Source: Planoprotostelium fungivorum (lineage: Eukaryota; Evosea; Variosea; Cavosteliida; Cavosteliaceae). Taken from it: a stretch of DNA of 64,000 nt. This document shows, one piece after another, positions 6,166 to 51,865 of the stretch; the first letter of the stretch is position 1, and each line of letters starts with the position of its first letter. Below the pieces are notes generated by a model. It was not told where the DNA came from. It worked only from the letters and a program-made list of their open reading frames with translations, and searched no databases. Position numbers and translations under genes: made by a program. The DNA is taken from contig MDYQ01000118.1 in the NCBI GenBank assembly GCA_003024175.1, positions 1 to 64,000 of the forward strand, in the 5' to 3' direction.

Positions 6166-9100
6166 TCATTCATCCTCCTCCATATCATATGTCATCCATT
6201 CATCTCCATCCTGGTGGGCCACCTTCACCAATATCCCCTTCGGATCTGCCCACACTTCGATGTTCGAGTACAATCGGATGTACTTCAGCGTAGGTGTGGC
6301 GTTCAGCCACTGGTTCAGCCACACGATGAGAGGGTACCAACTGTCTCCATCTATCACATTGGTTAAAGTCATAGAACGGCGGAAGTGATCGTATGGGAGG
6401 AGAAAGGTCCATTTTTTTGGATCATATATGATGCTGAGGCTCTCGAGAGAGGGAGGCAGCTGAACGACACCGAGGAACGATCGATCGATGTTGCTGATCA
6501 CAGTCAGATCTGACTATGGGAAAGAGAACTACCTGAGATGAGAAAGATGAGGCAGCTCTTGCAAATGATGAGAGATCTCAATGGGTAAATTATAATAACC
6601 AGAGTTGAGGATGAACTCGATATGTGTGATTGGTCTGTAAGTCCCTGTGCCTTTGAGAACAAAGGAAGACAAATGACTGTTCACCATCAGAGAGGGGTGT
6701 AATGACTTCGTTCAACGACTGCGGGCAGCAGCGGACTCTCGTCAAGTTGGGTAATTGAGTCGGCTTCAGTCTTCCACTGTTCATCGTTCAGTCACAGCAA
6801 CACTGACATTCTCACGTGAAATGAAGGTCGATGTCTGTGATGGAAGGATGACGATCATAAAAGGCAGAGAAGAGGGCGATATCGTAGCCGTCTGTGCTGC
6901 TGTTGAAATGACTATTCCATCTGTCATTGTAGTGAAGTCCAAACTTTTGTAAAAGTGGCCAACTGTGGATCGTCACTATGACTATTGCAGACACAGTAGA
7001 AGCTCACGTGTGCTGCGTCAGGCTTGACTGCATGAAAGAGGGAAGATACAACTCGGTCAGGTTATTGTGACTTGCCAACTTGTCTACAAAAGAGGCCTCT
7101 CGGTTGTATACAAAGAATGGGCCGGACCGATATGCATCTGAAGATAGATGAGAATCACACACACGTTGTTGCCGACCTAGGTGGAAATGCTTTACATGGG
7201 GCCTGATGAGAGTTCGCAGGAGACAACTGCGGAGTTTGTGAGAAATGGAAGTAGACCGAATTGAAATTGAGACAAACTAGAGGCCAGATAGATATGGACA
7301 GGACGGACATACGATTGGATGAACACAAAGATCACTCACTTGTAGTATGATTCCAGCAAATCGTCCACGCAGCTATCAGTGAGGTCCATGCGAATCTTGA
7401 TACGTTCGAAATTGGCGAGAGGCAATGATGACATGGAGGCTATCCCATCAGCGGTGACCCTGATGTCCCCCTCGATCCGTCTTAGAGATGAGAACACGTG
7501 TGGGTTATCGAAAACTCGCATGGACTCGATCATCAAGTTGTTTGTGTTGTTGATGTGAAGAGTGTGAACGAGAGAAGCACTGTCTGGATGGTCCACAAAG
7601 AAGCGTTTGATTTGAGCGGGGAACTTGAAAGGAAGAGACATCCGATACAGAAAGTGTTTGAGGTAGATGGGATGGATGAAACGATACAGTCTCTGATTGC
7701 ATAGCATCTGAGATAATGAGTTGATAACAGAAGAAATGATTCTCACGAGATGGAAGACTGATCTGAACAGGGGGGATGATCGTCCGTGGGGGGACTCACT
7801 TCCGTTGCAGGAGTGAGGAAGCAACAGGCAACTGACATACTCGATGATATCTCGAGGTAGGTGATCAATGGTGGTGTACGCTCGTCTCGTTTGCACTGTG
7901 ACCTTCAGCTTCTTCAGTTGCCGCCCTATCTCTTCCTCCGCTGTGCTCTCCTCTTCGTAGTCTCTCAGCACTTCCACTAGCCCCCCTCTGCCGTTCTCTA
8001 TCGCTAGATTGACGGCTGTGTATCCGTCCGTCTCTGTCTTTGTTGTGACTGAGATGCCATACTCTTCGATCAGCCTCCTGACTGTCTCCTCGCAGCGCAC
8101 AGGATCGTCAGGCATGCAGTCTACAGCCATGTGCAGCAAGTTGTAGCCGTCGTACAGAGCCGGATGCATCTGACCAATGACTCTCTTCTCTTCTGCTGTG
8201 AGGGCATCTGATGCGAGAGAGAAGAGAGAGAAGATGTCCACGGGGGGCAGGGAACATGTTCTCGATTGAGGAGCCCAGCCGTCTTGTAAGACGCGGAAGA
8301 GCTCGAGTCCCTTGATGTGTGCTGCAGCTTGACTCTTGATGATGTCGAGAGAGGCAGGTGGCTGTGAGAGAGGCGGGTTCCAAGAGCAGTGGAGTCGAAG
8401 CTGCTGGGAGTGGTTGGGATCGTGCTCCTCCGCTTCGCCTACCACTCGATGTCGTTTACCCAACATCGGAGGAAAATCTCTGTACAAGCCAAGTATGACT
8501 GCGTCGATCTCCTCTCGTATGTGATATAGACCCATGACCTTGGATGCAAAGTCATACTGACTGCGGCTCCAGTACTCTCTCAGATACACGGATGATCCTG
8601 TCATCATTCAGATCTCTTCTCTTATATGACATTTCACCTTCTTCGATCATCTCTTCGATCAGCTCTTGGATTTGTATCATCTCTCCTGTTTTCCAAGCGA
8701 CATCAGGTATCACGAGACCCTTCCATCGCGCCGGAGGGACCACTTCCTGTATATCATTACACCAGAGCTGATAGTCTGCCCGATCGATCGTCTCGTCAGG
8801 CTTCTCCACTCGATCGATGTAGTACTGCAGGCACGTTCCATACTTTCTCCATTTGCACAAGTACCATTCTCCCGACTGATTTGTGGTGTCATTGACCCAG
8901 TCTTCGTCGTCTGTCAGTCCCTCCTTCTCTGCTCTGTCGACAATGTTGTCGAAATCATGTTCCATCTCCCATCTAGCATAAGCTTCTTGTCCTGTCTCTC
9001 CCTGTACATGGTTGAGATTCATTCGCATGGCACAATGATTCACCCAGCCTAAGGTCGTCGTGTTTTCAGCTGGGTAAGTACGTCCGTAGATCATCATCGT

Positions 9101-10602
9101 TGGACTGAACTGTTCGTCATCATAATCATTCTCCTCTTCTGAAGCACCGTAATCCACTTCGTATTCGAACAAGTTGTCCTTCGTCTGCTCCATAATATCA
9201 TCGAATTGATCTTGTCTCTGAGCTGCACTGTCATCATCATCATGACGAGTGTCAGCGTCAGACTCCATGATGTCTTTGGCTCTGTCATTGGTAGCTGACC
9301 GCTCAGAGTGACAGTCCATCAGCCGATCGATGAGTCGGTGTGATCGTTGTAGACGGACCAAATCTCTCTCGTACAGTATCTCTTCGTCCACTTCTTTCCC
9401 TTCTCTCTCTTCCAGCCTCGATATGCCTCTCATGTATCGGATCACGTGATCTTCGGCTGCCGCCTGCAGTACGTCCACTGCCTCTTCGGTCATCTCTTCG
9501 TCTGTCGCATAATCGCATATGATGTTGCCTGCCACGACCTCGAAATGGTGTTTGGAAATCGCTGATGGATGATCCTGAGAGGATGTCACGAGAGAGTTGA
9601 TACATATCGAGATGAACAGAAGAAGAAGACGAGATGCTGAGCGAAGAGATGGAAGAGATGGAGATCACAGAGATGATGCGATAGAGGATCATACAAATGT
9701 GAAACGATGAGTTGACATCACCGGATAGAGCTCATGATAGTAGAGTAGATCCATCGTGTGGTTCACATTGAGCCAGCTATAAGCTCCGTCTTGGAATGCC
9801 TGTCTCTGCATCAGCGTCTCGTTCCTGTTGTATGTACTTGCCTGAAGGTAAGCGTCGTCGGGCAGCTGAGGTCTTGGCGTGAGGTGATACAGATGAAAGA
9901 AACGCCTCTTCCAAAAGTCGCTGACAGGTGCTAGCAGCTCGTTCCACCTCTTACACACAAACTGACAGGACTGAACGAGATCGACTGTTCCAACGTGATA
10001 CAACACGATCTGCAGTCCATCGGCGTTGAGATCTGACAGCTGTTCACATCATCATCCAATTATCTTTCTGTCGTAGAATAGTAGGAACTCACCTTGACGT
10101 TGTCACTCTCCACTGCAGCAGGCATCTCTTCGGAGGTCACACCGGCCTCTCCTTTCAGAATTACAGCCAACTCGAGCAGTTCCTTGTCCTTCTTGAACGC
10201 TGTCGCAATGTGTTCCGGCTCGATGGTGCGTGCACCAGCTTCTCTCGTAGCATTACCAGCTAACTCGAGCACTTCTGCCGTCAGGTACTCCAGCACTCCA
10301 GCTAGATAGACGCAGGTGCCTGAGTTGTGTACCCGTCCTCTCGGTTTGCCGTCCGTGCCGTAGAGGGGTATCTGTTGGAGATCTTCGTAAACCCTTGACA
10401 CCCCCATCTGTAAACCCGCTGCACTTGAGATGGACCATCTTCTAAGATTATGTCGCTCGAATGTGGGTCGTGTTCGATCGAGGGGGTCTACATCAACGAT
10501 GGGAAGGATCGGCATGATCGAGCTCTGTGTTCCGAAGAGTTTGTCGTCTGATTGAAGTGGACCGAATGATCTCTTTTGGTTTTCTGATGAGAGCATTCGC
10601 AC
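6166..10602 (-). CDS. Histone H2A fold - F-box - H3-like fold - ankyrin - F-box - LRR-like chimera
   Basis: Exon 1 (10093-10602, 170 aa) holds a full H2A histone fold at residues ~57-145: SSAAGLQMGVSRVY, CVYLAGVLEYLTAEVLELAG and TIEPEHIATAFKKDKELLEL. The H2A acidic-patch positions in VLEYLTAEVLE are kept. Exon 2 (9722-10039) follows in phase 0 with an F-box (SDLNADGLQIVLYHVGTVDL, CKRWNELLAPVSDFWKRRF). Exon 3 (8638-9574) opens with an H3-like fold at ~285-356: FEVVAGNIICDYATD, EEAVDVLQAAAEDHV and YERDLVRLQRSHR. An Asp/Glu-rich linker and an unrecognised Trp-rich domain follow. Exon 4 (from 8597) has ankyrin-like units (YNLLHMAVDC, GYTAVNLAIENG) and a second F-box-like segment (IDHLPRDIIEYVSCLLLP). 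Short LRR-like exons end at 6166; their borders below ~7340 are not resolved. F-box proteins recruit targets to SCF ubiquitin ligases. The junctions at 8598-8637, 9575-9721 and 10040-10092 all keep frame, which supports a single gene, but two adjacent genes cannot be excluded. Confidence 0.72.
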
Positions 10603-12205: not shown

Positions 12206-13620
12206 TCATGTTTGGCGTGTAGATGCTATTCCTTGGGTCTCTGGACTGGCGCTCAGCCCCTCGTCATCCGCTTCGTTCATTTCAGAGTTGTCCAGCGCAA
12301 TCTGTGATTCTTGTTCTGCCTCTCTCTTCTCCTTCTGCTTGAGATGCTCCACCATCGATTTGAGGAAAGCCGGAAGGCAGATGATGTAGAAGAAGACCAT
12401 GGCACCATAATGAATCCAGATCATGGCCACACACAGACGAGTGCGGTCTCTACTACTGAGTGTGCTCTCGTCGACCATGAGAGCGGAGAGGATGAGGATC
12501 AATAAGATGACCGCCGAGAAGAGCAAGTCGATGACCATGGAGAATCGGTCTGCGTAAGGTCTCTGCCACAAGATGATGGCGATGTAAGCCATCAGGATGA
12601 TGAGTAGGGCTATGATCTGCACGTAGGTGGAAGCGTGAGACGAGCCGGGGGAGAAGAGGGCTATGACCAGAGCGAAGAGGAACTTCTTTGCAAAGACGAT
12701 GAGGTAGAAGTATCTGTGGATGAGGGTGTCCTTTGCTTGCCACGGTTTGTACAAGCCGGCAGTACATCCCAACACTCTCGTGTCGAAGGTATATCTTTTT
12801 AGAACATCAGATGCGATTCGTTATACAAAGTCATCCTCACCTGTCGTCTTCGTTGGGAATGGGTGCTGGTTGGCTGACCTCCTGAGCTCGTTGTTCTGCT
12901 GTTACCTCTTCGACACCGATTGAATCTGGTTGGAAGACTAACTTTCAGTCTCCTCTTCGGTATCTCTTCAGCTTCAGCTTCGTTCGATGTATATCTTCTC
13001 ACTCGCTGTCGGCTGAGCTGAGTGCATGGGTTGGTGAATCTTGTTCCATCTGGAGCGAACGGCCAAGATGTAGATGATGGGGACACGGTGAGAAGTATCA
13101 CGGATGCAAACATGATGGCAATGGACATCTCTCTCCCGGCACGTCGGCCACGGCCTGACTGATGAACTGATCGACAGACTGTAAGGTTCTGTGACCTGCA
13201 CGTCTCTCCTCTGACTCAAAGGTGAAGATGAACTGTTTCAGTGCTGTAGAGATCTGTCTCAACTGTGAGTGGTCCGAACAGGTGAACGTGTGTCATCTCT
13301 CACCTGCCAGGGCACAGAAGCAGAGAGATTGAGCCAAGAGAAGCAGCCGATGAAGTTCATGTAGAAGGTGGGATAGTTGACATTGACCTGCAATGACAGC
13401 ACCTGTTACCTTACGCTGCCACATGACATCTGCACTCACCATTAGCTGCATGAAATCAATGAGATGCCAAGCTCGTGAGGCTGAGTAGAAGGTGAAGCCA
13501 GTGAAACCGAGAAACAAACCGAAGAGAGTGAGAATGATACCGCCATAGCAGTAACCAGGCTGGGCAGCTGCAGGGAAGGAGACATGGACGGTAGACTCTG
13601 CACACTGAGACCACATGTCA
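12206..13620 (-). other. C-terminal multi-pass membrane region, TRP-like (Flc-type)
   Basis: This is the C-terminal part of the giant protein. A first hydrophobic segment (GGIILTLFGLFLGFTGFTFY) is followed by HLIDFMQLM. An intron then joins in-frame to VNVNYPTFYMNFIGCFSWLN and LSASVPWQ. The last exon (12206-12775) has KPWQAKDTLIHRYFYLIVF, a hydrophobic stretch, YIAIILWQRPYADRF and three more membrane spans. The aromatic-rich Y-P-x-F-x5-F-x-W-L segment and the later R-P-Y motif are what I know from the fungal/protist TRP-like family. The tail contains a short coiled coil (HLKQKEKREAEQESQ) and an acidic end. Confidence 0.65.
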
Positions 13621-16600: not shown

Positions 16601-19600
16601 ACATCGGATGATGAACCAATCACCCCAGCTGATTCATACTGAAGCCATTCAGTTGAATTTAATTTTTGCGTCCTCTCACCTCGACCAATGGATTGCCCTG
16701 ATTGTCCAAGGGGAAGTGCACATTGAATTTTGTGTTTGTGTACGTTCCTCTCACTGCTGCTATCGTAACATTGATGTCCGCTGATGTTCCCACTGTCAGA
16801 CTGTTCAGTGAGCCTGTAGAAGTGGCCACAGGTGATGGCACAGTGACTGTGAGGAACTTGTAGGATGATGTGGATGTGCGAGGCAGACCAAAGGATGATG
16901 GAATGGACTGCCATGAGTTGTCCACTGTCACATCGATCTTCTGTCCAGGTACAACGGTAGCATCCGTGACTAACATCATGTCGATGTGGATCTCAGCGCC
17001 GATGGAGAAGAGAGGGGCAGTGATGATGAGTTGACCAGATGTGATTACTGATGTGATGTTGTCGATGGAGAAGGCGTCAGATGTGACGTTGTCCGAGCTA
17101 CCCGAGATAACAGTGATTCTAAGATTATCAGGGTGTAGTGTCATTTGATTGAAGCGAATGGTCGTGGAGATGCTGTGAGCCTCTGCAGTAGAGCCCTCGT
17201 GTGACAGAGAGACACTACCGTTGACCGTCTGACCCGCTTGTATAGCAATGTTGCTGGGAAAGCTAGAGGCAGAGACGAGTGAGGCTTGATAGACAGAGAG
17301 AGTGAAAGGGAAGACTTGAGGTGTGCTTCCGTGACTCCATGACAGCTCTGTCGAGTGGCACAGTAGCTTGCCAGGGATATTCTGAGGCAGGTCTTGCAGA
17401 GTGCAAGCCACGTATAGTTGAAGGCAGTCATCCATGGTGGTTGAACCGTAGGCAGTACTGTTGATGGTATCCAGCAGAAGATTGAGGCTACCATCAGAAG
17501 AGACCAGAGAGGTAAGATCTTGTCCTTCGCTCAGTCCACTTCCGCTCAGATGTCTTCCGACACGTACGACTGTCACATCTGCACCGAATCAGATCACGCA
17601 CATCTCATCAGCTTCTCACTTGTCACTGTCAGTCTGGCTGTTGTGTCCACAGTCATGTTGTTGCGTGAGACAGAGGAGATGAATGAGTTGTCTGAGATGT
17701 TGACTTGATGTAGACCGTAAGGGAAAGAGATGAGAAGCATAGTGGACAGTGTCTCTCCCACTCTCAGACCTGTCATGACATGGGATGCATTTGTTGATGT
17801 GAGGTTATTCAGAGGGTCTTGAGGGTTGGGATAAGTGATGCCCGAGTCAGTGATATTGAAAGAGATCGATGGCATCATAACATCTTGCAGAATGACTGAA
17901 ATCATCTTTGGATGAGATGATGTGAAGATCAGCTCTCTTGTATCACGTAATATCCTGATCAACAGTCAGATATCGGTTGAATGACGATGATCTGGTAAAT
18001 GATGCAATAAAAATCGATGATTTGTTCACCTGGACGGAGAGGGAGCGGTCTGCCATAGCATGTACATGTCACTGTGTGGATAGTGGAATGGTATGTCATT
18101 AGACACCGTCACCATGTAGATGAATGTTGCCGTCTGTCCAGGCTGTAAGAGGGGCAAGTCGAAGCCTACAGATCCGTCTGAGGCCTCTACAAAGTTGCCC
18201 GAGCTGGCAGAGGTCGAGCCACGGACCAGACGCAAGTAAGGGTCTGTCACATTGTCCCACAGCGTGATGTTGTAAGCAGCTACTGTGTTGGCCAGACGAT
18301 GAGATACGACCAGCTGCATCTCAACGACGTCGCCCTCAGTCACAATGGACTGTGATGAGGTGAAAGAGAAGTCCAAGAGGGGTGTGACCAGGGTCATGAC
18401 ATAGTTGTAGCTTGTGTTCTTGACGTTCCAGTCAACCATGGAAGAGAGAGGCAGAGATGCATCGTAGACGTTGTAGTCGTTGTCAGAGAGCAAGAAGGTC
18501 ACTCTCACGTCCATCGTGTTGTTCACACCGACGCTAGCCACCTGCACATGATCAAAACAAAGGCATGCAGATGACACAAGCCGTACCTTGCCAAAGGAGA
18601 TGATGGCAGTAGATATGTTGTGAGCGTCTGCTGTGACCATGGGCAGCGTACCATTCTGTGGCAACTGATCGAAAGACAGGTCACCATGGAAAGAAGACTG
18701 AACAGACTGGAATGTCATCTGGTGGGCAGGAAGTGATAAGGTGACAGTCAAATTGTTTGTGATGCCATAAGGTAACTGTGCAGTCGTAAGTCATGATAGA
18801 ATGAAGAAGAGAGTATGACAGCGACTCACTTGTAGTTGAACGATGAAATCAACGAGTTGATTGGGTGTGACAAGTACATCCGAAGTTCTCAGAACATTCA
18901 ATGATTCGTAAGAGAAACTGGATATCACGTCGATGATCTCGAGCGATATCTCCGGTCCATCCACTGTGTACACCCTCGTCTCAACCGATTCTATAGCAGG
19001 AGAGCTTGCGTAGGACAGTTGAGCTGTCTCGATCAGCAAGAGAAAGTGATTTGGTGCGAAACTGATGGCTCACCGAATGAAGAGTACAGCTTCGAAAACT
19101 CAACGTCGCCTCTTATGATGGCAGAGAATTCGATGATGATCGACTCGTTAAGTGGGATGGTTGCTATGGCTACCACTACGGCACCGTGTGAATCTAGCGT
19201 GATTTTACCGGAAGTAGTGTAGAGGGAGGTGAGGCTGACGTTGAGATAACTTTCCACGTGGTAGATCAAACCGAGGTCGAATGCAGCGGCGGTGCTGAGT
19301 GTGGCGTGGGAGATGTTAGCGCGGTAGTGGATGACGTCTCCTCCTTGACCAGAAGAACGAGAAGACTGAGATGACATCAGATTCAATTCATAGATAACGA
19401 CATATAACTCACTGTGCAGTCCACGATCAGAGTGGGCTCTACAATATCAAATCCATAGCTCTTCTCGAAGAATATTCCGTGGGCAAAAGAGAAGGCTACG
19501 TCTACATCCACATGTGACATAGCGATGGAATTGCTGCTGTCATCCACATACAGTGCTATCTCCACTCTGGCCTCGTTCTCTCCCACTGCAGATGTCGTGC

Positions 19601-22600
19601 TGTTGCTCATGTTGTCTCTCGGTGACGACTGTGTGCCATCAAAGTCATAGACGATGGTAGTAGTGGGTCCAGTCGTGGGCGTGAGAGAAGCGTTGCTGTC
19701 AGTGGCAAGGCTGTGAGAGTACAAGTGATTGCCCATGTACAAACGAGTTGTGTCCACGCCAAGATGAGCGCCAAAGGTGCTGAGAGAGATGTTGACCTTC
19801 AGCTCTGATGTACTTCCATATGGCAGCTGCAGATAGACGATCAACGCCACGCGTTCACCGACAGATAACAGAGAGGATGAGTTGGTGTGGATGTTGGAGA
19901 TGATCTGTGAGCTGGCCACGGGAGATGGTGTATTGACACTCAAGATAGAATCCAGTACAGTGTACCTTCTGGCATACTGTAGATTTGGTGCACTGAAATA
20001 AGCAAGGGCCAGGGGGTGGTAGATAGTCGTATTCATCGGTATAAAGTCCCACAGTTGTGTCGTGTACGTGAGCTGAGCCACGCTATCTGGCAGGTGGTCG
20101 TACGATAAGTCGAGCGTGTTGACGCTCGTGTTCTTCTCCACGTAAGAGCCGGCATCGATCGATGTGACATTCCAGTTTGGTAGAGTATCACCGATGATGG
20201 ATACGTGGAATGGTGTTGATGTGGCCGAGAGGGAAGGCTCGATCTGGAAGCTGACGTTGAAGAAATCACCACCTTGTCCGTTCTCTCTGTCGATGGTGGA
20301 GGAGAAGACTAGATCGGGCTCTTGAAGTGTCCAAGTGTGGTCGTACGTCGAAACGATACCGTTATCTTCTGTCAAGGTCGTTGTGAGGCTGACAGTCTGT
20401 CCAACATAGTTCCTCTCCAGGTCAGGTGCGTACAGATTGAGCTCAACGATCATCTTGCCGTCACTGTTCGTTCCATCACCGATGATGTAGCCAGGCGCTG
20501 ACATCACTCGGCCAAACATTCCTTGTATCTCGTCTGCCAGCCCATCGCCGTCGATGTCGATCACGTCCAGCAAGCTCTTGTCTCTCAGTCCAGTCGAGTT
20601 GGTGTGTGAGCCGATGCTGACACTGGCGTTGATGACTTGCAGTGCGCCTGTGCCTGACAAGAGAGTAGAGAGGAAGAGAGAGGAAGTAGAGCCAAAGGGT
20701 AGATCGATGACGTGAAGTAGCGTGATGACTTGTCCTATGGTCAAGTTGTTGCTACTGCTGCTAGGGATATCCGTTGTGAAGTCGGTGGTGTAAGAAACCA
20801 ATGGAGTGGTGATACCAATCGTTATATCTTCCAGGAAATTCCTAGCGGGAGATGTGGGGGCGGTCTGGTAGTGCAGCGTCATCGGATTGTAGATGGTACT
20901 GTTGTATGAAACAAAGTCATACAGCTTGGCATCGAATGTTATGGTAGTGTTGGTAGACAGGACCAATCTTGGTATGAGGATGTTGATCGACTCGTCTCCC
21001 ACTGATTGTCCAGATAGTATGTTGTAGAGGGGAGAATCACAGATGATCGAGCCTGGTACAGGAATGAAGCCGGGAAGGAGAGGCACTTCCAGTCTGGTCT
21101 CCATGGCATCAGCAGTGGATTGAGACAAGTGAGAGATGACCAAGGTGAACTGAATGACGTCTCCTCCCTGACCGTTCGATGTGTTGGATGCCACAGTGAA
21201 GGTGAGAGAAGGCTCAGTGATAGTCCAGGAGAGCGTGGGGACGGTGATGATAGAAGCAGGTCCAGAGAAGGTGGTTGTGATGTTTGTTTCCATGTCCTTC
21301 GCGTTTGTGACCGTATTGTTGATGTAGAACACGGTCGTAATCTCGATCTGTCTTCCTGGTAGACTTGAATTCCCTCCAATGGATGTGTTGTCGGACGACA
21401 TGATAGTGCCCAGCTCAAAGTGGACCACATCAGCCAATCCATCGTTGTTCGTGTCTACCACCGATGATGCGTTCGAGCCAGTAGTCAGCAGTGATGAGTT
21501 GACGTTGCTGCCCATAGTGATGACAGATGAGACCACAGAGACAGGCACAGAGGGAAGGAAGGCATAAGTGACGTTGAGAGCATCAGTTGATCCAATGGGC
21601 AGTAGAACAGTGGTCGTGAGAGTGATTAATTCTCCCACACCGATGAGTGTAGAAGATGTACCGTGAACATCGCCAGAGAAACTATTGAATGCCGTTGTGA
21701 TCTGAACAATTATAAACGAAATCGCACGAGACAGAAAAGAATACTCACGTTGGGTGTAATGACATCAGAAGAGAGATCGATGATGGGATATGTCTTCGCA
21801 TAGATGTCTGGCGAGCTTGTATAGCTGACCGTGCCCATGTTGCTGACTACTGTGTTCATCTCTGCGTACTCGTACAGCGTGGCGTTGTATCTCAGCGTCA
21901 TCGTTGATGCTGTGGGAAGCTCATATGCCGTCAGATAGAGGCCAGTGATAGAAGGCACAACAATTGCCGAGCCGCCGGTGACCACAGCTGAGCCTGGCAC
22001 GAGAGTCCAGACAGGAGAGAGGGCATAGTTGTAGTGTATGCCAAAGGCAGAGGACGTCGATGCAGCTGAGTGAGACAAGATCACAGTGAAGGCAATGTTA
22101 GCGTCACCTTGGCCATAGGTAGGTGTGTTGCTCTGTGTGGCCACGAGAGATGGTCGAACAATTGTCCATGTCTCAGTGGAGTTTCCAATGTCACCGGTAG
22201 AGCTACTGACCGAGGAATTGTAACTGATTGAGCTTCCGACAGCGTTCTCAGGTATATCGGGCAGGTAGACCAAGGTAGTGACAGTCACTCTTCTTGTGTA
22301 TGTATCGCCCGCAGATGTCATCAGCTTGCCCAGTGTGATGTTCACCGTGTCGTTGTACGTGTTGTTTGCTGCACTGGACAAGACTGCTGGATCATCTTCA
22401 ACCAGAAGAGACGAGTTGATGTTGCTGCCAAAGCTGACTGTCGAGCTCATGATCTCAAACACTGCACTGCCTGCCTCATTTTGAAAGGACAAAGAGATGT
22501 TGACTCCTGTGGCTTGACCGATGGGCATAGTGAGGTAGTGAGAGATAGTAAGGACTTCTCCAATCGACAGCACTGATGGATTGAGACCATGGCCAGTCGA

Positions 22601-25600
22601 TCGATATCCTGCCGAGAATTGCCCGTCCAACGTGGAGACGAAGAGAGTCGTCGTGTTGATGTACTCTCTCGAAAGACTGTTGTGTCCTCCAAGGTAAACA
22701 ATTGTAGCCGTGGTGGGGCAAGTGCTTCTGTCCGGTACAAAGGTGTACATCTTCGTTGTGTAGTTGAAAGTGAGATTGCTTCCGAGAGGCAATAATGGTC
22801 CAGTGATGGTCACAGAAGAGCTGCCCATGTTGTTGCCCTCTACCACTCTGAAGCCAGCCTCACTCAGTTGGACTGACCCGGGGACCAGGACAAAGTAAGG
22901 AAGCAGCGGCACTGTGATGACCATCTCGCAGGCTGGTGAGTCGCTGATGGCCGTGTGGAAGAGAGTGATGGTGTGATTGACAGTGTCCCCTCCTTGTACG
23001 CCCATGTATGGGAAGGTGGATGAGATACTGGTGATCTGTGGCTCTGTGATGGTCCACGAAAGGTCTAGTAGATCGACAGCCGAGGCAGAGCCGATGACTC
23101 TGGTCGTCAGACTTGCGATGACTCCTCTGACGTTGGTAACCGTGTCGTTGATGAAGAACACTGTAGTGATCTGTATCTGTCTCCCTTCAACGCTGCCTCC
23201 TATCGTTGTGTTGTCTGACGACATCACAGTGCCCAGGCTGTACTTGATCACATCTGCCAGTCCGTCGTTGTTTGTATCGACCAGTGATGATGCGTTCGAG
23301 CCAGTGGGCAGAAGAGAAGAGTTGACGTTGCTGCCCATAGTGATGAATGAAGAGACCACAGAGACAGGCACAGAGGAGAGGAATGCATAGGTGACGTTGA
23401 GATCAGTAGAGCCGATGGGTAGAGCGATGAGAGTGTCGACAGTGATGAGCTCTCCCACACTGATCAAAGAAGATGATGCACCGTGGACATCACCAGAGAA
23501 CGAGTTCGATGCAGTCGTGATCTATTGAATTGATTAGATTCGAATAAAACGTAAATGAACTCACGTTAGGTGTTATGATGTCCGAAGAAGGAGTCAGAGT
23601 GGGATAAGTCCTGGCGTAGTGAACTGGTGAACTGGTGTAAATGACTGATCCAGTGTTGTCGATGACTCTGTTCATAGGGGAGTACTCGAACAGTGTGGCA
23701 TTGTACGTGATTGTGATGGACGATGTGTTGGTCAATTCAGTGGCTGTGATGTACAATCCAGAGTCAGAAGGTACAGCTGAGGCTGAGCTGCCGACGATGA
23801 CCAGAGATCCAGGAACTAAGATCCACTGAGGTGCTAAGGGGAAGTTGATGTGCAGACCATAAGCAGTGGCAGTAGATTCCGCTGCGTGAGACAGAACCAC
23901 AGCGAAGGCTACATTGGTATCTCCTTCACCAAAGGTGGGCGTGCTGTTCTGTACGACCACGAGCGATGGTTCCACGATAGTCCATGAAATAGTCGGCATG
24001 GTGATGGCTGATGCGGGTCCAGTGAAGGTGGTCGTGAGGTTGATCAGCACATCTTGTATGTTGGTGATGGTATCGTTCACGTAGAAGGTAGTGGTGATCT
24101 CAATCTGTCTTCCTAACAATGTTTGATTTCCTCCAATGGATGTGTTGTCAGAGGACAAGACAGTCCCCAGCTCGAAATGGATGACATCAGCTAAGCCATC
24201 ATTGTTCGTGTCCGCCAGTGACGATGCGTTTGAGCCAGTGATAAGCAGAGACGAGTTTGTGTTCGTTCCCATAGTGATAGTCGATGAGAGGATGGCCACA
24301 GGCACAGAGGGATCGAAGGCATAGGTAATGTTGAGGGCATCAGTTGATCCGATGGGCAGAGTGACAGTGGTAGTCAAGGTGATGAGCTCTCCCACGCTGA
24401 TGACTGATGATGATGGACCGTGTACATTGCCATAGAAAGTAGTCCCTCCTGTTGTTATCTGAAGATCGCGTCAGTGAAAGCCATGATGATTTCAGTCTTA
24501 CATTGGGTGTCGTGATGGTGGATGATGGAGTGAGCACTGGATAGTTTCTGGAATAGCTGTTCGGCGAACTTGTGTACGAGATGACTCCAACGTTATCGAT
24601 GACTCTGTTCATGGGAGAGTACTCGTACAGTGTGGCATTGTAACTGACTCTGATCAATGTCGATGTGTTCACAACAGCTGCTGTGATAAACAGCCCAGCA
24701 GCAGATGGTACGACTTCGGCTAAGCCACCAGTAATGACCACAGATCCAGGTACTAAGATCCACTGAGGTGACAGAGGATAGTCAATGTGTATGCCATATG
24801 CACTTGCTGTCGAACTGTTTGTGTGCGACAGCGTCACTGTAAAAGCTACTTCTGTATCCCCTTGACCAAAGGCAGGCGTGCTGTTCTGTGTGATGGCTAG
24901 TGTTGGCTCAGTGATAGTCCAGGAGAGGGTAGGCACAGTGATGGCCGACGCAGGCCCAGTGATGGTGGTTGTCAAGTTGGTAGCGACTTGTCTGATATTG
25001 GTGGCCGTATCATTGACGAAAAAGAGAGTTGTGATCTGAATCTGTCGTCCCAGTAGAGAAGTGTTACCATCAATGGATGTGTTGTCTGACGATAAGATAG
25101 TCCCCAAATTGTAATGAATCACATCAGCCGTTCCATCATTGTTCGTGTCCACCAGTGATGTTGCATTCGAGCCAGTAGCCAGATGAGAAGAGTTCGTGTT
25201 TGTGCCCATCGTGATCAAAGAGGAGACTATTGTGATCGGCACAGAAGGAAGGAAGGCATAGGTAAGATTGAGAGCATCGGTCGATCCAATGGGTAGATTG
25301 ATGAGAGTGTTCAATGTGATGAGCTCTCCAACGCTGATGAGCGAAGAAGAGGCACCTTGAACATCGCCGGAGAAGGTATTCACTGCCGTGGTGATCTGAT
25401 GATGGTGTTAGAATATATTAGAATATGAACGATTCTAATTCTCACATTTGGAGTTGTGATCATGGAAGATGGGCTCAGGACTGGGTACATTCGAGAATAA
25501 GCATTTGGTGAACTCGTATAGGAAATTGATCCAGAGTTGCTGATGACACTGTTCATGGGAGAGTATTCAAATAGTGTGGCATTGTAATTGACTGTAATGG

Positions 25601-28600
25601 ATGTCAAATTGCTCAGTGATGTGACCGTGATGATCAGTCCGGAAGCGGAAGGCACAACTGAGGCAGAGGTACCTACGATGACCACAGAGCCAGCGACGAG
25701 TGTCCACTGAGGAGCCAGAGGGAAGTGAATACGAATACCGTAGGCGCTCGCCGTTGATATGCCCTTGTGCGATAGGACTACAGTGAAGGCTACGTTGGTA
25801 TCTCCTTGACCAAAGGTAGGGGTACTGTTCTGTGCCACCACCAGAGATGGCTCAGTAATGGTCCATGATATGATGGGTAGAGTGATTGCAGTCGCAGGTC
25901 CAGCGATGCTTGTCGTCAGACTTGTACTGACTCCCCCCACGTTTGTAGCCGTATCGTTGATGAAGAACACTGTAGTGATCTGTATCTGTCTCCCTTCAAC
26001 GCTGCCTCCTATCGTTGTGTTGTCTGACGACATCACAGTGCCCAGGCTGTACTTGATCACATCTGCCAGTCCGTCGTTGTTTGTATCGACCAGTGATGAT
26101 GCGTTCGAGCCAGTGGGTAGAAGAGAACAGTTGGCATTGCTACCCAGAGTGAAGAAGGACGAGACCACAGAGACAGGTACAGAAGGAAGGAAGGCATAGG
26201 TCAAGTTGAATGCGCTAGTAGATCCAATGGGTAGGATAACAGTGGTCGTGAGAGTGACGAGTTCTCCCACATTGATCGATGTGGAAGATGCGCCATGGAC
26301 ATCACCAGAGAAAGAGGTTGATGCTGTTGTAATCTGATGATACATCAATAAGAGATAACGATTCAAATATTGTCTCACTTTTGGTGTGGTGACGTTAGAT
26401 GACAGGTCGATGATGGGATATGTCTTCGCATAGATGTCTGGCGAGCTTGTATAGCTGACCGTGCCCATGTTGCTGACTACTGTGTTCATCTCTGCGTACT
26501 CGTACAGCGTGGCGTTGTATCTCAGCGTCATCGTTGATGCTGTGGGAAGCTCATATGCCGTCAGATAGAGGCCAGTGATAGAAGGCACAACAATTGCCGA
26601 GCCGCCGGTGACCACAGCTGAGCCTGGCACGAGAGTCCAGACAGGAGAGAGGGCATAGTTGTAGTGTATGCCAAAGGCAGAGGACGTCGATGCAGCTGAG
26701 TGAGACAAGATCACAGTGAAGGCAATGTTAGCGTCACCCTGACCGAAGGCAGGTGTGTTGCTCTGTGTGGCCACAAGAGATGGTTGAACGATCGTCCAGC
26801 TCTGAGTTAAGTTGCCGATCAATCCAGTCTTACTAGTGGCCGAGACGTTGTAGCTGACTGAGCGTCCCACAGTGTTGGCCGTCACATCAGGCAGGTAGAC
26901 CAGGGTAGTGACAGTCACTCTTCTTGTGTATGTATCGCCCGCAGATGTCATCAGCTTGCCCAGTGTGATGTTCACCGTGTCATTGTACGTGTTGTTTGCT
27001 GCGCTTGAGAACATGCCAGACATGCCTTCGGTCAGAAGAGATGAGTTGATGTTGCTGCCGAAGCTGACTGTCGAGCTCATGATCTCAAACACTGCACTGC
27101 TAGCCGCGTTCTGGAAGGACAAAGAGATGTTGACTGCTGTGGCTTGACCGATGGGCATCGTGAGGTAGTGAGAGATTGTGAGCACTTCTCCGATCGACAG
27201 CACTGATGGATTGAGACCATGCGCCGTTGAGTTGTAGCCTGCAGAGAGCTGACCATCGATAGACGACACAGACAGAGTAATCGTGTTTGTGTATGATGTA
27301 GCCCAGGTATGTGGTGAGCTCAGATAGACGATATCGGCCGTGGTAGAAGACACACTCTTGTCTGCTATGTATGTGTACATCGTCGTCGTGTACTGCACTG
27401 TCACGTTGACGCCTTGCTGCAGCAGCGGTCCACTGATCAGCACAGATGTGTCGCCGCTGCTGTTGCCTTGTACCACTGTGAACCCACTGTTGCTCACTTG
27501 CATCGTGCCAGGTACTAGAACAAAGTCGGGAAGTAACGGCACTGTGATGACCATTCCATAAGCTGGTGCATTGCTGATAGCCGTGTGGAAGAAAGTGATA
27601 GTGTGATTGACTGTGTCTCCTCCTTGTACGCCCATGTATGGTGTAGTGGATGAGATGCTGGTGATTGATGGCTCTGTGATGGTCCATGAGAGAGAGGGCA
27701 GGCTAATGTTGGATGCAGTGCCAGAGAAGGTGGTCGTCAGACTTGTGATGACTCCCCTGACATTTGTCTTCGTATTGTTGACGTAGAAGAGACAAGTGAT
27801 CTGTAGCTGTCTGCCCACAAGCCCAGAATTGCCTCCAATCGCGATGGTATCAGAGGATAAGACAGTACCCAAATTGAAGTTGATGGTATCTGCTAGCCCA
27901 TCGTTGTTGCTGTCCACCAGTGAAGATGCGTTCGAATTAGTAGTCAGCCTTGACGAGTTAACGTTGCTTCCCAATGTGATGAATGATGAGGCAACAGTGA
28001 CAGGTACAGACGGAGAGAAAGCGTAGCTAACGTTAAGAGATGTCGATCCGATGGGAAGGACAACAGTGGTGGTGAGGGTGATCAGTTCACCGACGCTGAT
28101 CAGCGAGGGAGATGGTCCATGTACATCACCAACGAATGTGTTGGATGCTGTAGTGATCTGTACGAAAATGAGATATAAAGTTACGGATGATATGGCTCTC
28201 ACGTTTGGCGTGGTGATCAAAGTGGTGGAGCTGAGTGAGGGATATGCTCTTCCATAGCTGTTAGGTGAGCTGCTGTATGTGACTGATCCAGTGTTGCTGA
28301 TCACTCTGTTCATAGCAGTGTACTCGTACAGCGTGGCATTGTACGTAACTGTGATGGTAGACGAGTTGCTCAAAACACTCGCTGTGATGAACAGTCCAGT
28401 TGATGATGGTGTCACAGATGCTGAAGTGCCAGCGATGACCACAGAGTCAGGGACTAAGATCCACTGAGGTGCCAAAGGGAAGTTGATGTGTATACCACAT
28501 GCGGACGAAGTAGAAGCCGCAGCATGAGATAAGACTACAGTGAAGGCAACGTTTGTGTTTCCTTGACCAAAATTGGGTGTGCTGTTCTGCACGACGACGA

Positions 28601-31600
28601 GAGTTGGCTCGGTGATAGTCCATGAGAGTACAGGCAGAGTCACAGCTGTTGCAGGTCCAGTGACGACAGTCGTTAAACTGAGACTGACCCCCTTGATGTT
28701 TGTGGCTGTATCATTGACGTAGAACGCTGTAGTGATCTGTATCTGTCTACCCACAAGGCTGCCTCCTATGGATGTGACGTCGGATGACAAGACAGTTCCC
28801 AAGTTGTAGTTGATGACGTCCGAGGCTCCGTCATTGTTGGTGTCAACCAGTGATGATGCACTTGAGCCAGATGCGAGCAGAGAAGAATTGACGTTGCTTC
28901 CCATAGTTACAGTGGATGATACCACAGTCACAGGCACAGATGGCAGGAATCCATAACTGACGTTAATGGTGGTAGTTCCGATGGGAAGGATAATCGTGGT
29001 CGTGAGAGTAACGAGTTCTCCTATGTTGATGGCAGTGGAAGATACACCGTGGACATCGCTAGAGAAGTTGTTATATGCCATAGTGATCTGTGATACATGT
29101 GAATATTCCCCATTCAAAATCAAATCAAACTCACATTGGGCGTAGTCACAGACGAAGTACAGCCGAGAACAGGATAGTTTCTTCCATAGCTGTTAGGCGT
29201 ACTTGTGTACTGTATCGTGCCACTGTTGCTGATCACTCTGTTCATGGGAGAGTACTCGTACAGTGTGGCATTGTATGTGAGTGTAATTGATGAAGAGTTT
29301 GACAGTCCTGTACCCGTGATCAACAGTGCAGAAGCTGAGGGTATGACAGAGGCTGAGCTGCCAGTGATGTTCACAGATCCTGTTACTAAGATCCACTGAG
29401 GTGACAGAGGGAAGTTGATACGGATGCCGTAAGCAGTGGCAGTTGATGTGCTCTTATGTGCCAGTATCACTGAAAAAACTACGTTCGTTGTGCCTTGAGC
29501 AGTGGTGGGGGTATTACTCTGTGTGACTACGAGAGATGGCTCCGTGATCGTCCACGAAAGTGCAGGCAAGCTGATGGCCAATGCGGGCCCAGTAAATGTG
29601 GTTGTCAATCTTGCAGCAGAACCTCCAGTGTTGGTCTGGGTGTCGTTGATGTAGAAGAGAACGGTAATCTGAATCCGTCTACCGGAGAGACCAGAGCTTC
29701 CTCCTATCGTTGTGACATCTGATGACATCAATGTTCCAAAGTTGAAGTTGATGACGTCAGCCAGTCCGTCGCTGTTCAAATCGACCAGTGATGATGCGTT
29801 CGATCCGGTGACCAAGAGCGTTGAATTGGTGTTAGTTCCCATCGTGACTGTGGATGAGACCAAAGCGACGGGTACAGAAGGGAGGAAGGCGTAGGTCAAG
29901 TTGAGTCCAGTGGTTGAACCAATGGGTAGAGTGATGAGAGTGCTCAATGTTATCAATTCTCCCACACTGATGATCGAAGAGGATGTACCGTGTACATCAC
30001 CAGAGAAGGTGGTCACTGCTGTTGTGATCTGTTGTTATCATCAATATCTAAAACATTTGCATTCCTTTCTCTCACATTTGGTGTCGTGATGGTGGAAGTG
30101 GGAGCCAAAGCTGGATAAGTGCGAGAATAGCTGTTCGGTGCACTGGAATATAAGACTGTTCCACTATTGCTGAAGACCTTATTCATCGAAGAGTACTCAT
30201 ATAACGTAGCATTGTACGTGACCGTAATGGAAGCCAAATTGCCCAAACTACTGGCCGTGATGAACAGACTCGATGGAGAAGGTGCGATTACGGCTGCGCC
30301 ACCAGTGATGACCACAGATCCAGGTACCAAAGTCCACTGAGGTGCCAGAGGAAAGTTGATACGTATACCATAAGCTGTGGCTGTCGACGTGCCTCTGTGT
30401 GATAAATTCACAGTGAAGGCGACGTTGGTGTCTCCTTGACCGAACGTAGGTGTGCTGCTCTGCACTACTGTGAGGACTGGCTCCGTAATGGTCCAAGAGA
30501 TGACGGGCATAGTAATTGCAGTCGCATGTCCAGTGATACTTGTCGTCAGACTTGTACTGATACCCTTCACATTCGTTCCCGTATCGTTGATGAAGAAGAG
30601 CGTCGTGATCTGAATCTGTCTGCCCACAAGGCTGCCTCCTATCGTTGTGACATCGGATGATAAGACAGTACCCAGGTTGTAATTGATGATATCAGCTGCT
30701 CCATCGTTGTTCGTGTCGACCAGTGATGATGCATTTGATCCAGAAGAGAGCAGAGATGAGTTGACATTGCTACCGATGGAAATGGCTGATGATACAACAG
30801 TGACGGGGACAGATGGGAGGAAAGAATAGGCTACATTGAGAGCACCGGTCGATCCGATAGGAAGGACAATGGTAGTGGTGAGAGTGATGAGCTCTCCTAC
30901 ATTGATGGATGTGGAAGATGCACCATGGACATCACCAGAGAAAGTATTCGATGCTGTTGTGATCTGATGCAATTAGATACAGAGATAATATGATGTGTCT
31001 CACGTTGGGTGTGATGATGTTGGAGGATGGAGTCAATGTAGGATAGGTTCTGAAATAGCTGGTAGGTGAACTCGTGTATGTGATCGTTCCACCGTTGCTG
31101 ATGACTTTGTTCATTGTGGAATATTCGTACAGTATGGCATTGTACGTGATTGTGATCGAGGACGTGTTGGTCAGCTCAGAGACAGTGATGTACAGTCCAG
31201 AGACAGTTGGTATCACAGAGGCTGAGTTGCCAGAGATGACTGCTGATCCAGGAACTAACGTCCACTGAGGTGAGAGAGGAAAGCTGATCTGCAGGCCATA
31301 AGCAGAAGCCGTAGAGGTGGCAGCGTGCGACAAGATCATTGTGAAGGCAACGATACTATCTCCTTGTCCTGTGATGGGTGTGTTGCTCTGTGTTACTGCG
31401 AGAGATGGCTCTACGATAGTCCAGCTCTGTGACAGTGTACCGATGGTGCCGGTAGAACTCTTGGCAATGGCACTGTATGTGATGATGTTCTTCTTGACAT
31501 TATATGCCACGTCGGGGAGGTAGACTGATGTTGTGACTGTGATTCTCCTTGTGGATGCATCTCCTATGGAAGCCATGAGCTTGCCGAGAGGGAAGGTGAT

Positions 31601-34600
31601 GGTGTCATAGATGCCATTGTTGGCCGCACTGAACAATGTAGCCGAGTCACCCTCGATGAGAAGTGATGAGTTGATGTTGCTGCCGAAGCTGACTGTCGAG
31701 CTCATGATCTGGAACACTGCACTGCCTGCTACATTCTGGAAGGACAAAGAGATGTTGACTGCTGTGGCTTGACCGATGGGCATCGTGAGGTAGTGAGAGA
31801 TTGTGAGCACTTCTCCGATCGACAGCATTGATGGATTGACACCGTGTACAGTCGAATTGTAGCTGGCAGACAGCTGACCGTCCAGTGATGTAGCAGATAA
31901 CATCATGGTGTTGACGTAATTCCTTGCCAAAGCGGTGGGTGCACTGAGGTAGAAGATGTTGGCTGTGGTAGAAGACACACTCTTGTCTGCTATGTATGTG
32001 TACATCGTCGTCGTGTACTGCACTGTCACGTTGACGCCTTGCTGCAGCAGCGGTCCACTGATCAGCACAGATGTGTCGCCGCTGCTGTTGCCTTGTACCA
32101 CTGTGAACCCACTGTTGCTCACTTGCATCGTGCCAGGTACCAGAGTGAAGCTGGGAAGCAGTGGGATAGTGATATTGAGTTCATAAGCTGGCGAATTGCT
32201 GATGGCCGAGTGATAGAGAGTGATAGTGTGATTGACAGTGTCTCCTCCTTGCACACCGGTGGAAGGTGTTGTGGCCACTACCATTCCGATGTCTGGCTCC
32301 ACGATGGGCCACACTGACGTGACCATATTCAGTGCAATGCTATCACTGTAGATGGTAGTCGTCAAGCTGAATGTCTTTCCTCTGACGTTGGTCGGTATGT
32401 TGGGCAACACCGAAATGATCTGAAGGGCGATGCGCCTATCAGTGGTGTTCCACAGTGAAAAACTTCCAGCAGAGATGACAGTCATGTTGGAAGTCAATAC
32501 GGTCCCCAGGAACAATCTCGAGAGATCAGAGAATCCATCTGCATTGGTGTCGACGAGATCTCCCATCGTCCCGGACGTCGCGTTGGTCGAATTGACGTAT
32601 GGACCGAGCTCGATGGTCTGATTCAACAGCTGAGAGAGTTCAGATGGTGGAGATAGAGTGAGACGGTGTCACCTGCACGGTGGCTGATCCAGTGAAGGAC
32701 GTGACGATAACGAAATTGTTCATGGTACCGATGGGATTGATGATGACCGTGTAACTCATCAAATTCTCACCCACGGTAAGAGAAGTGGGAGCAGATCCTT
32801 TGATGGTGCCCGTGTAGTTGGCTGAAGCGACTGGTATGAGGGTCTGTAGGGTAGAAGCTCCCGTTGTGGTGTATGGGCGTGAGGGCAGGCCGGGAACACT
32901 GGTGTAGTACAGGTTCGCCGTTGTCGTCACGGAGGAGCTCAGCGTGATGTATTGATACAGCTGAGCCGTAAGATTGATCTGCGGCACAATGAGCTTTCTG
33001 TGGGTTCAAATGGGAGGAACTCACTTGTACGATGGTGTTGAGAGGTAATTGGGAGAGGTTGATAAGAGGTACAGAATCTCCGTTGCTATTTCCCGTGACG
33101 ATCGTGGCTCCGCTGTAATTGGTCGAAACTGAACCAGTGACCAGAGAGTAACCAGACAGTGTCGTATTGATGAAAAGGTTAAAAGCGTCCGCGTTCGATG
33201 TTGCGGTGTGTCCCACATAGAAGATGAACTGGATGATGTCCGTTCCTTGTCCAGAACTGGGTGTGTTGCTAGAAGTGATGTAGAGGGTAGGCTCTATGAT
33301 AGTCCACGTGTTGATAGCGTATCTGGGTGTGCCTCCCACTGACTGGTACATCGTCGAATTCAGCCATGGTACTGTTCCTCTCCTAACGAAATTATCAAAC
33401 ATCATCAATCTCGAATATATAGACAGATATCTCACTTGTTCAATGCTTGAGGTGTAACTCTACCCGAAAATGTCAGAGAGAAAGTGCCACCACCGTTATT
33501 GATCCCTGTGTTGTACGAGTACACGTCTCCCATAGAGAACACAGCAACATCATTGTACCCATATGCGTTCAGCTGTGACAGACTGGCTGCTGACCCCACT
33601 GCCATACTCGAGTTCAAGCTGCTGGCCATGCTTGTCATGTTTGTGCTGACGATCTGCATGATGGCAGTGGTAGAGCTGAAGAAAGAAAAGCTGAGAGCGA
33701 GAGAAGGCACTCGACTGCTGGGCACAGTGACAGTCACCGTGACGTTGATGACATCACCAATACGTACAAGACTACCTCCGAGAGGTGTAGCCGTAGTGAT
33801 CGTGAAGGTGGGGGTGTTGATGGTCACAGTGGTACCTATCTGCGCTTTATAATTTCTCCACACCTGACACCTTGATCAATTTAATTGTTCGAATCGTAAG
33901 TCTTACCGAAACACCATTGATGGATGTACTGTTCCAGCTAAGATATCCAGTCAAGATGTAAGTAGCTCCGGATGTCAAAAAGGACGACAGATTGGCCGCA
34001 AAGTTGATCGTGAAGCCACTCGGTCCGACAGATGAGATCGCTGCCACTCCTCTGTCTCCTTGTGTGTTGCCCTGTGTCACTGTTCCCACCACATTCGTCA
34101 GTGTGACACTGGATGATGCGCCCACAAAGATGCTGTTGAAAGGCGAGCTGAATGAGATGTCGAAAGGTGCAGAGGAAGATGCAGAGGCCAGAGGGTAGGC
34201 AAATCTGAACGACACGGCATCGCCTGACGACAAGACTGCAGATGCGTTCGTCGTCACAGATGTCGTCAACAATGGCTCTCTCACTGTCATTGTGCTGAAG
34301 CTCACTATTGCTTTTCAGCTGTCGACTCTGCATCATCAGCTCACCTGCAACAGCAGAGGCAGTGGACAGACAAGCGACAGAGAAGGTGGGCAGGATGGTA
34401 GTGCCCGCGTTAGTCGTCGTCAGATTGGACACAACCGTCTGAAGTGTGAAGGTCACAGTGGAGGTGGTTGAGCTAGACACAACATTATTCAGATTCCAAG
34501 ATGCACTCGTGCTTGTCGTTGTGTTGGCTGAAAGACCTAGAACTTCGATGGGAGTGACCGAGTTGATCGCAGACACCTATATCCACAACATCAGACGTTT

Positions 34601-37600
34601 AATCTTATCTTTCAACTCACCGTGGAAGACAGTATAGAAATAGTGGCAGGGATAGTGAATGTGGCAATGAGATTACTGCACGTGCCAGGAGGTATCGTCA
34701 CCGTGGACGTAGCATTGACGATGGTTCCTATGGTGACGCTGGGAAGAGTTACCGTACCGGTGAGACTGCTGGCTAAGCTGCTGACGCCACTGGGTGGAGC
34801 ACTGATGAAGTTGATACTGCTCGTAGTCGACTGTGGGTTGTTCGTTAGGTGAGATAATGATGAGCATCATACCTTGACTTTACCATTGGTGGGTGCTGAT
34901 GTATACACGATAGAGGAAGTGATCTGGAATGTACTGTGTAGTGCGACCGAAGATGTGGGAGAGAAGTACACGGCGATAGAGATCGTGCCTTGTGTTGCAT
35001 TGATACCCGTGTGATTCAAGTAGAAATAGGGCCAATTCACTGTGACAACACCACCAACAACATTGACTGAATTTCCAGAATAAGAGAAACCGTTGGGAAT
35101 CCTATGAGGAGAGCGTCAGTCGAATGTTCGTCGATCAATAGAAGTTCTCACGTGATGTTAACAAACAAATTATAAGAGGCAGTGTTGGTACCCGTACGAG
35201 GCACTAAGGAAAGAGTGGTAGAAATGGAATCTCCTGCTTTCACACCACTGGCTGTAGCATTGGTCACCATAGAGGCAGTCAAGAGTGGTTCGTAGACGGT
35301 GGTAGTGAAACTACTAGTGCTAGTCGTGATGAGAAGAGGCCACTTCTGTGCGCTCGTGATGACGAGACTCGTGCCTTGTGTAGTTGATGTGGCGATCAGA
35401 CCCGTCATCTGTCAACGTCGGATGTAGAACATAGAGATAAAACTCACGTTGAATGTTATGGTATGAGTTGCACCAGTTAAGCCATCTGATAGAGCAGAGA
35501 CGGTCGATGCATAGACGAAGATGGCTGCTTCTGGTATGCCGTCGTTATTTGAATCTACAAAGCTGATCGTGGGTGTGCCTGCTGTGATAGCTGATCCTGT
35601 CGATGCCACTGCACATGACTGATAGATCACGCCTGTAGGCAACGTCATCGTCACGTTGTATGACGCCATCTGTCCTCCCGGTATCACTGCTGCACTCTGA
35701 TATGTTGCTACCTCGCCAGCTTGTACGTTTGGATTGGCTGTCGATGCCAGTGACGACTCAGACATGCTCGTTGTGATACTAGGTGATCCCACTGTAAACG
35801 AGGCTGCCACACTGCCACTTGTTGTATAGCTTCTGGCCTGACTGTTGCTTATCGGCTGACTGTAGTACACTGCAGTTACGGCAGGCTGTGTGAACACTTG
35901 TCCCAGCAGCACTGTAGATGCCACCTTCACTGTGTACTGCAAGATGCAGCTAGTAGGCGTCTTTGGCAAAGAGGCAAAGCTGATATTGACAGATGTATAT
36001 GAGACTGTGGAACCAAAGGTGCCACAAGTGGATGTTGTGACCACACTGGATGACGAGTCCAACTGCACAGGTACAGGATCACTGATAGTGACGTTGTAGA
36101 TGGTAGTGGGGGTAGATGCCCAGTTGAGCGTCAGTGTAATCGTCACGCTCGTTCCTTCAGCCGTCAGCAGATATCTAGAATGATGCGCTTACCTCCCACG
36201 CCAGTGTTGACGCTGACTGCCTTTGCTATGCTCATCACTGGCTCAATGATCGTAAAGCTCGCTGCTGATTGCATACTACCATACGGGTAGCTCATCATGG
36301 CCATCATGTTACCGACCACCGTCTTCTGGTTTACCGCACTGTCTTCTGTTAGCTTTCTGTTTTGTCTTTCTTTCTCTCCCACCTCGAGTTGACAAGCAGA
36401 GTGACTGTCATGTTTATGTTCGTTAGACGATTGGTCGTCAGCTGAGAGCCCCAGCTGAAGGTAGCTGTGTCCTTCGAAGCAGAGATGGCGGCAGACGATC
36501 CAACGGGCTGAGACGACGAAGAATAAGCTGAGCTGGAAGAAGAGACGACAGCAGAAGTGATCTGACATAGAGCTGGGCCCGCCTTCGTCGTGATATTTAC
36601 GACCACCATAGAGTTAATGGAATATGGGACGCTGATGGCAAATGTGACGGTGATCGTTTCTCCAATGGTTGCACTGTCTGTGAATGGATTAGTGAGATGA
36701 ATGTACGGGAAGAGACGAAACGTACTGGGTAAGGCTGATTGCTGAGTGAGAGCTGTGAGGGTGATGGGTGCCGTGACGACGTTGAAGGTGTAAGGGTTGG
36801 GTGGGACATACGATGCACCTTTGGCAGTCGAACTGTAATTGATGATGGAGGAAGTGAAAGTCGATGTGTATCCAGAAGGCGAAGAAGAGTTGATCTTCGC
36901 TTGTGTGACGAGAATCTGTACGTTCGATCCTAACGAGGCATTAGAATTCACCTCTACGATGGTGATCTCACCTTGGATGTCAGCGGTGATGTTGGTTGAG
37001 AAACCTCCAGTGTAAGGAAGAGTCGCACCGGTGTAGCTACTGGAACAGGGAGTCGTGAGAGAGCTGATGTAACCACTCTGTACTAAACTCAAAGTGACGT
37101 CATAAGCTGTAGCCGTGAAGGTATTCATCAGAACAAACACCATGGTCACCGTGTCTCCTCCTTGTACGTTCTATATTCACTTCAGAGAAGATCTAAGATG
37201 AAAAGACTCACCGATATACCCGAATAGACCATGGGTGACCACGAAGTAGATAACTGACCTGTATAACCAGGGCAAGTGGCACCGCCAGTGAATGTCATAC
37301 CCGAGAGAGCAGGTTCACTGTTGGGCGTGTGGAGAGGGCTGTCCGTCCAAACGGCAAACTGAGCGAGGAAAGAGACAGAGGGCTCATGATAGTACACGTT
37401 CTTACTCGCCGTGTATTGAGCCGAACTCTCGAATGCATTGACGACCGCCTGTGTTGGATCAGCGATGATCAGCGGACGAACCTCTTCACTCACCAATGAA
37501 TAGATGACATCCTCCTTTCTCTGCGTTCCACTGACGACGAGTGAGACTCTGAGGACGAGAACACTGGTGGGGAACAGAGGATCGTTGTAAGCTGGAATTG

Positions 37601-51385: not shown

Positions 51386-51511
51386 GCCCCTCTAAGAGCT
51401 TCCCAAGTATGAGGTGCTGATGTGATGCTTGTAGAATCGATCGCCCGAAAAAGTTTGGAAAATTCTCTCAACATCAGATCACATCCTCAACCACATTCAC
51501 ACACAAGAGAC
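51386..51511. promoter_or_regulatory. 126-bp divergent promoter region
   Basis: This is all the sequence between the SZT2 start (minus) and the SF3B6 start (plus). It must supply both promoters. It contains CA-rich sequence before the SF3B6 ATG; no specific element is recognised. An upstream in-frame ATG for SF3B6 at 51422 exists, but it would add residues not found in the family. Confidence 0.4.
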
Positions 51512-51865
51512 ATGGCCCTTCGCAGTAAGACCTCTCGTCTACCCCCAGAAGTAAACCGCATATTATACGTGAAGAATCTTCCCTTCAAGATCACATCGGA
51601 GGAGCTGTATGATATCTTTGGAAAGTTTGGAGGTATCCGGCAGATACGGCTTGGAACGGCCGCCGATACAAAAGGAACGGCCTTCGTTGTCTTTGACGAT
51701 ATCTACGACGCCAAGATGGCGGTTGACCATCTCTCCGGATTCAACGTCCTGAATCGGTATCTCATCGTACTCTATTATCAACAGAACAAGGTCACGAAGA
51801 AGGCAGATCCGAATGCGAAGAGACAAGACATCAACAATCTGAAGGAGAAATACAGTGTCGAATAA
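51512..51865 (+). CDS. SF3B6: Splicing factor 3B subunit 6 (p14, RRM protein)
   Basis: A single uninterrupted exon of 117 codons. The product lines up almost residue for residue with human SF3B6: [75 protein letters not shown] and a Lys-rich C-terminus ending [11 protein letters not shown]1-like (KGTAFVVF) and RNP2-like (ILYVKNL) motifs are present. In the U2 snRNP this subunit sits on SF3B1 close to the branch-point adenosine. The start [15 protein letters not shown] was chosen over the Met at 51422 to match family length. It is unusual here in having no intron. Confidence 0.96.

Follow-up and report, generated by a model that had tools for sequence, protein, structure and literature searches.

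In a 64,000-nucleotide stretch of the Planoprotostelium fungivorum genome (contig MDYQ01000118.1, positions 1 to 64,000; hereafter the window), we find on the minus strand a gene that likely encodes a fusion of a histone H2A fold to an F-box, as judged from its sequence. Homology and a strong first intron together give good support to a product that carries both an F-box and an H2A histone fold. Exon 1 (10093..10596, 168 codons, ATG at 10596) holds the H2A-type fold at residues 57-145. A phase 0 intron of 53 nucleotides (nt) follows (intron 1, 10040..10092, GTGAGT...GAACAG), and exon 2 (9722..10039, 106 codons) carries the F-box in its first half, ahead of a tail without known family.

An earlier note on this DNA, made from its letters alone, had read an H2A match running from an AGLQ motif through the third helix, and this match is real. 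A phmmer search of the PDB with exon 1 (E up to 1) matched 210 distinct sequences, the best being an H2A at E 1.9e-13, and the 60 listed of these 210 are H2A chains or variants. The Pfam Histone profile scores above its cut-off for the spliced protein (E 1.3e-7) and barely over it for exon 1 alone (E 8.5e-6, 26.5 versus 26.4 bits), so that a significant histone hit, which the note had named as a check on its histone segments, is in hand for this one. Against human H2A, 42 of 79 aligned core residues are identical, and the pairwise score of exon 1 (159) was reached by 0 of 1000 shuffles. The single-sequence model of the domain is poor, with a mean predicted local distance difference test score (pLDDT) of 43.9 and helices at 59-73, 93-119, 127-136, and 138-152. 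Foldseek returned 1463 matches to this low-confidence model; the 50 listed belong to nucleosome or H2A-H2B entries, at 30-49% identity, none of those listed having an E below 0.001.

The resemblance to H2A is distributed unevenly over the domain. H2A numbering, acidic-patch and DNA-contact positions, and their roles follow nucleosome structures. Helix 2 shares 21 of 27 residues with human H2A and helix 3 shares 3 of 10. Retention of the acidic patch, as claimed earlier, holds for five of its six residues (E56, E61, E64, D90, and E92), with Lys at E91. Only 2 of the 11 aligned DNA-contact positions are kept (12 were listed, one of which is unaligned), and the segment that docks on H3-H4 is likewise identical at 2 of 11 aligned residues. 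An insert of 8 residues lies in loop 1 and at its edge, and the net charge of the aligned core is -3, versus +5 in human H2A. Compared with a core histone H2A, the protein has the fold sequence and lacks most of the DNA contacts, the basic charge, and most of the docking segment.

Because helix 2 and the acidic patch are kept and most DNA contacts are lost, these features point to pairing with H2B without DNA wrapping, and the H2A part may find its partners among H2B-type histones that are not on DNA. With most DNA contacts and the H3-H4 docking segment lost, the protein would also be kept out of ordinary nucleosomes. The same features bear on a second reading, an H2A variant that enters nucleosomes and whose F-box is a tail bringing an SCF (Skp1-cullin-F-box) ligase to chromatin. 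The kept helix 2 and acidic patch speak for it, but the 2 of 11 values for both DNA contacts and docking and the net negative core argue against it, and we hold it to be decidedly unlikely.

The F-box that had been claimed is also real, recognizable although it falls below the Pfam cut-offs. Exon 2 alone matches F-box-like at E 1.3e-4 (22.1 bits, cut-off 24.3) and F-box at E 8.6e-4 (19.6 bits, cut-off 20.5); in the spliced protein the corresponding values are E 0.004 and 0.017. Three of the four PDB matches to exon 2 are FBXO2, FBXO6, and FBXO44 (E 0.013-0.24), with FBXO2 the best at E 0.013. By sequence the product belongs with F-box proteins despite these scores. The open reading frame (ORF) of the F-box begins after a stop at 10049-10051 and has its first ATG only behind the F-box, so this frame needs an upstream exon.

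Three exons with two phase 0 joins had been proposed, and the open frames and joins are all present. To score the joins, donor and acceptor matrices were derived from introns of the window that iterated ORF joining had turned up within a set range of 36-74 nt, a limit that leaves long introns under-represented in the matrices. The 42 introns collected measure 38-74 nt, and in most of them the donor is GTGAG and the acceptor CAG. When intron 1 is excluded from training, the other 41 score 15.2-24.9 bits. Intron 1 itself scores 21.9 bits, which 7 of the 41 exceed and which 0 of 2000 dinucleotide shuffles of its region reach (median best 6.5).

This score counts against a third reading, in which the gene model is an artefact or the gene is decaying, an H2A-like gene reading through intron 1 next to the remains of an F-box. 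The frames, intact over 168 and 106 codons, and a helix 2 much better kept than the rest oppose it as well. It draws on the unspliced exon 1 frame, which reads past the donor to a stop at 10060, ten codons on, so that an H2A-only product is possible, and on a codon bias that is not clear: exons 1, 2, and 3 score +0.006, +0.172, and +0.016 bits per codon, values close to or under those of some other frames. We consider this reading unlikely. Just upstream of exon 1 lie a TATATA at 10680 and an ATTAAA at 10635.

We tentatively propose, with somewhat less than even confidence, an F-box protein with a captured H2A as its N-terminal domain, which would pair with H2B and bring the pair to an SCF ubiquitin ligase. 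Slightly less confidently, the captured H2A, with most of its DNA contacts gone, would be the substrate-binding domain of the SCF ligase, trapping H2B-type histones via the natural histone dimer; this H2B trap is our best guess at the mechanism. In known nucleosomes, the H2A fold folds only with a partner. Here, it would pair with free or chaperoned H2B, or with an H2B variant. The F-box would bind Skp1 and so deliver the pair to the SCF ubiquitin ligase, which could then ubiquitinate the partner or neighbouring proteins, perhaps clearing surplus histone. The earlier note had pictured an SCF adaptor working by histone mimicry. Of that picture, the H2A fold and the F-box are well supported, docking on H2B by H2A mimicry would fit the features kept and lost, and the H3-like part has not been established.

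Several points weigh against this proposal. The F-box scores lie under both Pfam cut-offs, and codon usage is uninformative, showing no clear sign of coding in exons 1-3. An Arg (R123) sits one place off in loop 2, at T76, and may still touch DNA. The partner and the substrate of the protein are ones that we infer. Finally, no relatives were found in a viral contig collection (searched with the spliced protein and the H2A segment) or in genome contigs (searched with exon 1), collections with few eukaryotes; since human H3 and H2A sequences were also unmatched in the viral contigs, those scans say little.

If true, a ubiquitin ligase would recognize a histone by imitating its obligate partner, an unusual mode of histone recognition for an H2A joined to an F-box, and one by which free histone pools could be controlled. 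The protein would, moreover, be a rare example of a non-histone eukaryotic protein with a true core-histone domain.

The closest known kind, by description, is ABTB2 (Cca3), in which a double histone fold is combined with ankyrin repeats and a BTB domain and which offers an earlier example of a presumed cullin adaptor with a histone fold (PMC13088155); BTB proteins appear as Cul3 adaptors in reference titles of PMC12664368. ABTB2 combines BTB with a double histone fold of low identity to histones, whereas here one fold close to true H2A is linked to an F-box. The BTB domain that marks the ABTB2 family is missing from the present gene, with no BTB match in exons 1-3 or in the ORF at 7336-8607. 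Three SCF ligases whose F-box proteins target a histone, SCF-Rcy1, SCF-Met30, and SCF-Cdc4, presumably do so via other domains, not via a histone fold. KDM2B (FBXL10) is not known to have a histone fold. The three SCF ligases act on the histone Cse4, degrading it (PMC13079627), and KDM2B is an F-box protein linked to ubiquitination of histone H2A (PMC6037479), the ligase activity there being RNF68-RNF2; F-box proteins thus do act on histones. Histone folds also occur in fusion proteins in the doublets of giant viruses and archaea (PMC10919886), where the fused partners are themselves histones and the protein is built for DNA. A literature search over titles and abstract starts found no described H2A-F-box fusion or histone-fold F-box protein.

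An H3-like histone fold had been placed in the same protein by the earlier note. The H3-like stretch stands at the start of a putative exon 3 (8638..9574, minus strand, 312 codons), and the residues listed for it are present, but both the fold and its place in this protein are unproven, the similarity being weak and no histone appearing among PDB sequence matches at E up to 10. Pairwise alignment with H3 is gapless (score 48, with none of 1000 shuffles reaching it, Gumbel p 0.0011, as one of 12 exon-by-histone comparisons). On our own four-sequence H3 profile the stretch scores 4.7 bits, a value that 6 of 5000 shuffles reach and that lies above all 231 decoy ORFs (best 1.7 bits). Exon 3 matched no histone among PDB sequences at E up to 10, and the Pfam Histone profile gave E 0.19 for a hand-trimmed 50-residue piece and nothing for a 79-residue piece or the whole exon, so the check on a significant histone hit failed for this segment. 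A single-sequence model, of low confidence (mean pLDDT 64.7), shows three helices connected by short loops, 20, 29, and 41 residues long, of which the first two are histone-fold-like; no histone entry is among the 50 listed of its 77 fold matches.

The link from exon 2 to exon 3 is a putative intron 2 (9575..9721, minus strand, 147 nt, GTGATG...CTCAG, phase 0), which we regard as doubtful. At 6.4 bits its score is not better than chance, since 499 of 2000 shuffles do as well, and it is longer than all 42 collected introns, whose search stopped at 74 nt. Better splice sites for joining exon 2 to exon 3 were sought and none was found. If intron 2 is not used, exon 2 extends 10 codons to a stop at 9689-9691, giving a 284-residue H2A-F-box protein.

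These results bear on the full earlier model, a single SCF adaptor with an H2A fold, an F-box, and an H3-like fold that mimics histones twice. The gapless H3 match, the profile score above all 231 decoys, and the phase 0 join argue for it. The match was, however, chosen after seeing the sequence, neither the PDB sequence matches nor the listed fold matches include a histone, Pfam reached E 0.19 only on the trimmed piece, and intron 2 is at chance; we judge this model improbable. A related reading, which we find unlikely though less so, makes the histone fold an internal or assembly module whose partner is another histone-like fold, either of its own chain or of a further copy, with substrates held by exon 3 or by ankyrin repeats. 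The H3-like stretch (p ~0.001 versus shuffles), its low-confidence model, in which the first two of the three helices are as in a histone fold, and the precedent of SOS and ABTB2, which both have double histone folds (PMC13088155), would suit such a module. So would the absence of the promoter- and polyA-like hexamers sought (AATAAA, ATTAAA, TATAAA, and TATATA) from the minus strand between 10630 and 5500, which makes a longer gene possible. Set against it are the missing histones among the listed fold matches and the PDB sequence matches, introns 2 and 3 that score no better than chance, and the fact that H2A does not naturally pair with an H3-type fold.

The position given earlier for the gene end, 8638, does not stand: the exon 3 frame is open to 8552, or splices into an ORF that ends at 7336. 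This adjoining ORF (7336..8607, minus strand, 423 codons) matches ankyrin repeats weakly (below cut-off, Ank_2 at E 0.0031) and could be an exon 4 or a separate gene; an F-box-like motif was seen in it by eye, but the profile search gave no F-box match. A possible intron 3 (8598..8637, minus strand, 40 nt, phase 1) would link exon 3 to it and is doubtful, scoring 11.0 bits, which 444 of 2000 shuffles reach. The overlap of the exon 3 frame with this ORF (8552 versus 8607) argues for one gene or for a later start, and the gene may continue into the ankyrin-like ORF.

Near its end, exon 3 also has a weak chromodomain-like motif, GEWYLCKWRKYG, which is unproven. In the piece at 8639-9187 (minus strand), an acidic region precedes this motif, which resembles a chromodomain core by eye and scores E 1.2 there. 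The idea of a chromodomain came from an apparent resemblance to CHD1, and it was rejected, as Pfam E values of 0.15-1.2 are far below cut-off and there is no PDB match.

The window as a whole is eukaryotic in character, with introns and a G+C content of 48.5%, and contains no tRNA and no Rfam family match. On the minus strand at 19386-32668 lies a very long gene built from tandem units, each about 930 bases (spacing judged by eye from the introns), whose direct repeats show 66-74% identity among the eight longest of 20 listed; one of its exons, of 904 codons, has no Pfam match above cut-off. A large inverted duplication pairs 30854-39649 with 55248-64000 over 8882 aligned columns at 80.4% identity, reaches the end of the window, and includes a very long, repetitive minus-strand gene. 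An ORF at 12209-12820 (minus strand) has a match (E 2.7e-10) to the TRP ion channel family of Pfam. At 51413-51862 (plus strand) is an RRM protein (E 1.6e-17) that presumably resembles the splicing factor SF3B6/p14.
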